Source of the DNA: Acidobacteriaceae bacterium
GTDB taxonomy: Bacteria; Acidobacteriota; Terriglobia; Terriglobales; Acidobacteriaceae
Reading direction: 5' to 3'
NCBI GenBank assembly: GCA_030041435.1
Contig: JASHNW010000050.1
Coordinates: 1 to 64,000 of the forward strand
DNA: 64,000 bases
Positions 3,385-4,575 of this stretch are shown piece after piece. Below the pieces are notes generated by a model that had not been told where the DNA came from, ran no database searches, and saw only the letters and a program-made list of their open reading frames with translations. Numbering within the stretch: the stretch's first letter is position 1; the number at the start of each line of letters is the position of its first letter. Both the position numbers and the translations under genes were made by a program.

Positions 3385-3415
3385 AGCCTGCCGCGCGGGT
3401 TGCCATCGTTTCGCG

Positions 3416-3439
3416 AAGCCGCACCTCCCGGTGCGGCTT
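3416..3439 (+). terminator. Hairpin terminator after tatA
   Basis: A perfect 10-bp stem (AAGCCGCACC / GGTGCGGCTT) with a TCCC loop, 31 bases after the tatA stop. The tail is C/T/G-rich rather than a clean U-run. Confidence 0.65.
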
Positions 3440-3457
3440 CTGTGCGTCTGTGCCCTG

Positions 3458-3724
3458 GAGGCTATTATTAACTTTCGCGCGGCCGGCGTTGCGAGGGAAA
3501 ATCGGGCCAGACGAAGCCGAGCCCGAAGGCTGTGGCGGGTCCACCGTCGAGGGCGAGAATGAAGTATGGCCCGATTTTTCCCGTAACCCTGTGGGCGGGG
3601 GCCCATTTTCCCCATTTCGTCGTCGCTCGTCGCTAAGATGCACCCGGCATCTGTCGCTCCTCGCTCCTCGAACTGAGAAAAATGGGCTCCCAGCGCCGGT
3701 CGTGGGAAAGTTAATAACAGCCTC
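3458..3724. mobile_element. MITE-like palindromic element with 31-bp inverted ends and two internal hairpins
   Basis: The ends 3458-3488 and 3694-3724 are imperfect inverted repeats of 31 bp; both read GAGGCTrTTATTAACTTTC from the outside in. Inside are two further inverted pairs: 3495-3509 with 3567-3582 (GGGAAAATCGGGCCA against TGGCCCGATTTTTCCC) and 3597-3613 with 3675-3691 (GGGGGCCCATTTTCCCC against GAGAAAAATGGGCTCCC). The whole would fold as one basal stem carrying two arms. It contains no convincing reading frame. Its right end touches the stop codon of the neighbouring gene at 3724-3726. It may be a non-autonomous element moved by a transposase elsewhere, or a transcribed palindromic repeat. 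No second copy was noticed in this window. Confidence 0.7.
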
Positions 3725-4575
3725 TACCTGCGAATCTTAGCCGCGATGGCGTCGGCGTCAAACCCGTCGGCCGGCAAGGGAACGTTGTACGCGGCCTTGA
3801 AGACGAAGCGCTGCTGCGTCATGTCGCCGTTGTGATACCGCGTGATGGCGAAGGGCGTGGGCAGGCCGTCGATGTTGTGATAGTCGTCGTATTCCTCCAC
3901 TTCCTCGTTCCGGTCGTGGTAAGCCGGGTCGCGCCAGTACCAGGTGCGCCGCAACGGCAGGTGCGTATCGGCGTCCATCTGGATGGTGATGGAGTCGTTG
4001 TCCACATTGATCAGCGTTACCTGGATGGCCAGATGCCGCTCGGCCAGCGACCGCCCTTCATAGAGCAGAACCGTATTGGGGTCCTTTAGCCACTGCCTTA
4101 CCGCCACCTCGATGGAGCGATCGCGGCGGCGAATGGCTTCCCCGCACGGATCGCTGTCCATGGGGCCCGGCTGCAGCGTTTTCTTCCCCTTGTACGTGAT
4201 CTCCCAGCACTGCTTCCCGGTGAAAATCTGCACCCAGTTTTGCCGATCGTGCTTCTTATCGTCCAGGTCCAGCCGTTCTTCCGCCGGCGTCCTCCAGTCC
4301 CAGTACTGGATATTCTCCCCAGTCGGCTTGCCTTGATAAAAGGCGGCGATCCGCCCCTCGGTGTAGGCGTTTTGCACATTCAGCCAGCGGTCTCCACCCA
4401 AAGCTGCCACCATGGCATCCAGAGCAGCGCGGGCCTTCGTGGTGCCGGCATCGTCAGAGGGGCTGGCGGGCGGTGTCGCAGATGCAGCCGGTGGAGCATC
4501 CGCCGCCGGTGTCGCGATTTGCGCGTGGACGGCAAGGGCACAGCAGGCAAAAAAAACAACCGGGATCTTTCTCAT
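3724..4575 (-). CDS. Exported protein of unknown function, possibly lipoprotein-sorting-like fold
   Basis: A 283-residue protein with a clear signal peptide (MRK then a hydrophobic stretch to about residue 18, AQ cleavage), an Ala/Pro/Ser-rich linker to residue about 45, then a domain beginning with a helix (ARAALDAMVAALGG) and continuing with alternating beta-strand sequence rich in W, Y and D. That layout resembles the LolA/LppX-like or outer-membrane lipoprotein-sorting folds common as uncharacterised acidobacterial exported proteins; I cannot prove it. The start ATG lies two bases after the stop of the upstream dehydrogenase gene, so the two are probably co-transcribed and translationally coupled. 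The stop codon is formed at the very edge of the palindromic element at 3458-3724. Confidence 0.6.
   Translation of the reverse strand: MRKIPVVFFACCALAVHAQIATPAADAPPAASATPPASPSDDAGTTKARAALDAMVAALGGDRWLNVQNAYTEGRIAAFYQGKPTGENIQYWDWRTPAEERLDLDDKKHDRQNWVQIFTGKQCWEITYKGKKTLQPGPMDSDPCGEAIRRRDRSIEVAVRQWLKDPNTVLLYEGRSLAERHLAIQVTLINVDNDSITIQMDADTHLPLRRTWYWRDPAYHDRNEEVEEYDDYHNIDGLPTPFAITRYHNGDMTQQRFVFKAAYNVPLPADGFDADAIAAKIRR

Follow-up and report, generated by a model that had tools for sequence, protein, structure and literature searches.

The ends are what usually define a MITE. MITEs related to IS5-family insertion sequences (ISs) are short, non-coding and intergenic, with IS-type terminal inverted repeats (TIRs) and a TA-type target duplication, and the 267-bp element at positions 3458-3724 of the window (the whole stretch of 64,000 nucleotides that was analysed) resembles them in all of these respects, but it has an interior unlike that of the IS, two homologous hairpins, and a core that occurs phylum-wide with changing ends. 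The elements RUP, NEMIS, Bcr1, ERIC, Nezha and EFAR, likened here by description only, are similar in size, in their 15- to 30-bp TIRs, in location near genes and in stable secondary structure according to the accessible part of PMC3733652, but that part makes no mention of a core whose ends can be exchanged. REP sequences and GTAG-tagged palindromes with RAYT, the REP-associated transposases that the same partial source reports in Acidobacteria, are also palindromic extragenic repeats. A REP, however, is a RAYT-linked palindrome of 20-40 bp with neither TIR nor TSD, whereas the element has 267 bp, two TIRs, a TA duplication and a DDE-type partner, features that lend no support to the REP-like family offered by an earlier, sequence-only reading. 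TIMEs, which are derived from Tn3, are likewise non-autonomous inverted-repeat elements moved in trans, but the accessible part of PMC4133298 gives them Tn3-type ends and the ends of the element are of IS5 type. No description of this element family was found in the literature collection that was searched for acidobacterial MITEs.

The element is a MITE, very probably one that is mobilized by an IS5-type transposase and in which a paired-hairpin core persisted through several replacements of the ends. The other suggestion of the sequence-only reading, a MITE, is borne out by the copies, matching ends, TA-type flanks, empty site, patchy spread and cognate IS described below.

Structure and insertion site of the element

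The repeat search and flank survey delimited a complete MITE copy with type-A ends on the forward strand (3458-3724). Its left TIR (GAGGCTATTATTAACTTTC, 3458-3476, forward strand) has one mismatch to the family end and its right TIR (GAGGCTGTTATTAACTTTC, 3706-3724, reverse strand) is the exact family end, so that 18 of the first 19 bp match between them. The 31-bp inverted outer ends previously noticed pair at 27 of 31 positions, compared to a maximum of 22 for the best 31-bp inverted match when the region was shuffled 30 times by mononucleotides, and belong to a wider pair of 38 nt (3458-3495/3687-3724, 84%). Between the ends lie a left hairpin arm (3489-3588, forward strand) and a right hairpin arm (3591-3695, forward strand) that matches the right-arm model R1 and has a conserved apex, TCGTCGCTCGTCGCT...GTCGCTCCTCGCTCCTCGA. 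The two inner pairs that had been drawn by eye were recovered, one as the left-arm stem 3495-3512/3564-3581 (89%) and the other at 3597-3619/3669-3691 (83%). The predicted RNA fold of the element has an energy of -147.7 kcal/mol (z = -7.4), which none of 200 dinucleotide shuffles equalled. The open reading frames listed across the element are mechanical and none is gene-like, in keeping with the earlier statement that it has no coding frame. The element matched no Rfam 15 family with E up to 1 or at the gathering cut-off, and nothing in the plasmid and phage collections.

On its right, the element is flanked by the TA of a target duplication (3725-3726), and on its left by TG (3456-3457), which is presumed to be a decayed TA and is part of a TG..TA arrangement found in 8 of 87 copies. 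The right end had been said to abut a stop codon, and does so exactly: the TA at 3725-3726 joins position 3724, the last base of the element, to form the TAG stop of a 283-aa gene on the reverse strand (3724-4575). The neighboring gene was located in ten same-genus genomes, of which nine cover the site (the contig of G011 ends too early), and all nine lack the element between tatA and the exported gene. In the seven relatives in which both stops were found, 74-143 bp separate the stop of tatA from that of the opposing gene, and the spacing here is 339 bp, the sum of 72 and 267. The relatives are only about 70% identical at this locus, so the empty sites that the sequence-only reading had looked to are present at nine same-genus loci but are not base-exact. 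A terminator-like hairpin 3' of tatA (GAAGCCGCACCTCCCGGTGCGGCTTC, 3415-3443, forward strand) lies outside the element and is present in most of the same-genus genomes with the empty site; its conservation where the element is missing means that tatA does not need the element as a terminator. The proposal of a structured RNA that ends the converging transcripts of tatA and the exported gene is disfavored by this hairpin of tatA's own and by the lack of an Rfam match, and the strand asymmetry expected of such an RNA is absent overall.

Copies, target sites and partner insertion sequences

The multiple copies with matching ends that had been foreseen number about 23 in the genome of this soil bacterium: 23 places, near-full or partial, were found with E below 1e-47, besides solitary ends. 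Eleven of the 23 match the element along its entire length at 91-100% identity, copies that are full-length and equally long are 91-98% alike, and one (G000:C61:48681-48949) is 96% identical to the element at 3458-3724. With at most three mismatches allowed, this genome has 63 occurrences of the end pattern GAGNCTGTTATTAACTTTC and none of the reversed control pattern. Shortened derivatives consist of the left arm only (G009:C86, G001:C20), of the right arm only with type-B ends (L127, L128) or with type-A ends and an insert (G000:C105:10026-10235), or of two ends back to back as palindromes of 50, 54 and 63 bp.

TA or short target duplications had also been expected, and TA..TA flanks were found in 51 of 87 delimited copies, most others, like the TG..TA of the window copy, being one base off. 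The commonest contexts of the 87 are CTA..TAG and CTA..TAA, i.e. YTA/G...C/TAR, and YTAR is the published target motif of IS5 (PMC10359306). Among TA-flanked ends with enough flanking sequence, 45 of 120 make the TAG stop of an open reading frame of at least 80 codons, compared to 11% of control TAGs, which are all the TAGs in the flanks of the elements (p 5e-14); 40 of the 87 elements (approximately 46%) have at least one end that forms the TAG stop of such a neighboring frame. The enrichment fits a TA target within YTAR combined with selection against insertions inside genes, and need not be targeting of stop codons, because YTAR contains TAA/TAG and insertions in genes are selected against.

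The cognate element of the type-A ends is an IS of 898 bp in the same genome (G000:C29:115212-116109), the ends of which match those of the element (TTA/GAGCC..GGCTC/TAA). Its reading frame of 281 residues matches PF13340, PF01609 and the IS5 family model NF033580 (212 bits versus a cut-off of 110). Stretches identical to this IS also run up to the ends of four other contigs, the pattern that a recently active repeat would leave by interrupting the assembly, and homologues that are 83-84% identical are present in G003 and G009. A decayed remnant of the type-A IS, approximately 75% identical and with one matching end, was also observed (L104, G000:C34:9775 region). The element and the 898-bp IS have essentially just their ends in common: the matches between them are 11-14 bp long and all but one are terminal, and the interior of the element is not that of an internally deleted IS. 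The genome G018 contains ISs of 762 and 832 bp with type-B ends (GGGCGTATCGACATAT), flanked by TA..TA and with ends matching at 17 of 18 positions; their transposase belongs to the same NCBIfam family as that of the type-A IS and is 24% identical to it over 83 N-terminal residues. Searching for PF13340 in genomes that have copies with C, A2 or F ends revealed no partner IS for these ends: G042 has one IS with type-B ends, the transposase match in G116 is interrupted by a stop and has no clear IS ends, and PF13340 transposases are absent from G168, G177 and G196. The complete genomes G168:C1 and G177:C1 nevertheless contain four and ten core copies, respectively, so some copies are orphaned or served by another enzyme.

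From these sequence comparisons, the element would be mobilized in trans by an IS transposase. In the proposed mechanism, the DDE transposase of an IS5-type IS, here the 898-bp IS, would bind the ends of approximately 18 bp and insert the element at the TA of a YTAR-like site that in many cases is a stop codon, where the terminal G of the element would restore TAG.

The hairpin core and its distribution

In 34 diverse copies, changes on both sides were found in 32 of 56 core pairs, a covariation that none of 500 shuffles reached; 96.3% of cells pair, and sliding the pairing collapses the signal. A covariance model of the right arm only also matches left arms on the opposite strand (for example L260, E 2e-9; L267, 4e-7; L032, 1e-4). 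Both arms therefore derive from a single hairpin and are homologous in inverted orientation, which accounts for the common core that had been seen in the inner pairs. The right arm of one copy (L186:7603-7869) is inverted with respect to the other aligned copies and, once turned round, shares 96% identity with a relative, evidence that the inverted repeats allow an arm to flip. Mismatched cells are GT in 39 cases and AC in 28 (27 versus 13 in the left arm, 12 versus 15 in the right arm); GT is not clearly above AC, and thus no RNA strand is singled out.

The right-arm model matched 20 of 150 Acidobacteriaceae genomes; these represent 11 of the 79 genera and have 1-26 copies each, a patchy distribution. 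The right-arm pattern was found at 80 loci in named genomes, mostly of Acidobacteriaceae and including Silvibacterium bohemicum and Acidicapsa dinghuensis; the matches in Streptomyces, Flavonifractor and a few others were rejected as chance, their core scores being near background. The phylum sample yielded full-length, weaker matches to the right-arm model in other families of Acidobacteriota. Most of those inspected have two arms and a length of approximately 260-300 bp; their flanks are of TA type and their ends differ greatly, GTACTGCTCCCCGGAAATAAG and GTGCTCACTTCCATAAATACGG being examples, and TTA..TTA flanks were seen in two of four delimited copies with GTGCTCACTTCCATAAATACGG ends. The apex of the arms is kept in these families and the ends are unrelated. 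Phylum-wide, the identity of the stems falls to approximately 0.61, and 15 of their 16 pairs show compensation; the identity of the apex is approximately 0.80, a value biased upward by the inclusion of the apex in the search model.

The stems might covary merely through copying of one arm onto the other by foldback template switching, with an interior that is neutral filler. This is a possible account, though it is rather to be doubted than accepted: it would suit arms that are inverted homologues, the flipped arm of L186, mismatches that are nearly strand-symmetric, stems and loops that are equally conserved within the family, and the existence of arm-deleted and end-only derivatives, but neutral filler is at odds with the greater conservation of the apex than of the stems across the phylum, though the apex had been used to build the search model. 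A core that is a functional structured RNA, acting in 3'-UTR stability or attenuation, spread by IS ends and kept by the host for what it does as RNA, is unlikely. The strong covariation of the stems and the apex conserved at the phylum level would agree with such an RNA, as would the 40 of 87 insertions directly at a stop, which would be in a 3'-UTR; however, the near balance of GT and AC mismatches clearly favors no strand, most Acidobacteriaceae genomes are without the element, and tatA is already followed by a terminator-like hairpin outside the element and Rfam offers no match.

Another hairpin of approximately 41 bp, CCGGGG[TC]CCCC followed by a variable palindromic stem and GGGGTGG, is nested variously in longer MITE copies (L014, L016, L020, L148, L152, L169, L202, L206, L231) and also occurs at G000:C15:45144-45180, C117:145952-145988 and other places. 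The sequence of its stem varies widely while self-complementarity is kept, and its strict pattern is found 12 times in the genome of the window and not at all with the reversed control. It looks like an independent small palindrome family.

Replacement of the ends

Relatives keep a core of approximately 212 bp, and the ends around it fall into no fewer than five classes: A (GAGSCTGTTATTAACTTTC), A2 (GAGCCTGTTATGCCCTTTT-like), B (GGGTGTATCGACATATA), C (GGGCCTGTTAACACTA and variants) and F (GGGTGTGTCATCAAACTCC). The spacing between end and core is 27-28 bp in those classes in which it was read. Left and right ends are always of the same class, and no copy combines a well-matched end of one class with a well-matched end of another. 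The five classes, defined beforehand by the ends, require 11 changes on a tree built from 97 cores, compared to a minimum of four, and the well-supported branches of this tree alone force at least four changes for A, three for B and three for C; a single clade is rejected for A (AU p 0.0086) and for B (AU p 0.0168). The core of L195, which has B ends, is 93.7% identical to that of a C-ended copy and 87.8% identical to that of the nearest B-ended one, and the nearest-neighbor cores of L162 (B) and L211 (A), 88.8% identical, belong to one MAG. The end classes thus come out polyphyletic when the cores are compared, and therefore ends have been exchanged. Gradual divergence of the ends along with their transposases, with no exchange, is very unlikely: the GRGCCTGTTA-like start of A, C and A2 ends and their near-constant offset of 27-28 bp from the core would accord with it, but it conflicts with the polyphyly of the classes and with the dissimilar A and B ends on the sister cores L162 and L211. 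Another MITE of approximately 190 bp (L126, G007:C6:2434-2624; L134, G004:C91:2805-2999) has type-B-like ends, GGCTGTATCGACATATAG, and an unrelated interior; thus, type-B ends serve more than one interior.

According to the preferred model of a kept core with replaced ends, the interior would be an inverted pair of homologous hairpins that persisted while the ends of other IS5-type elements came in, so that one chassis could be mobilized by different transposases. The likeliest route of replacement would be recombination that replaces one end, after which the new end is copied through the palindrome onto the opposite one; such copying would also keep the arms complementary. The persistence of the hairpin core may be explained by a role at the level of nucleic acid. 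A tentative extension, which could well prove wrong, is that the core is a selfish chassis distributed throughout the phylum, a pair of apex-conserved hairpins functioning as structured DNA or RNA that repeatedly captures the ends of different DDE transposases.

The new feature here is that the ends can be exchanged on an interior that is folded and stable. The elements form a large natural collection of stop-codon insertions together with a covarying hairpin, and the repeat family could serve for masking or as a marker in the annotation of Acidobacteriota genomes. An interior that is itself a stable lineage would illustrate how non-autonomous elements can persist after any one transposase is gone.
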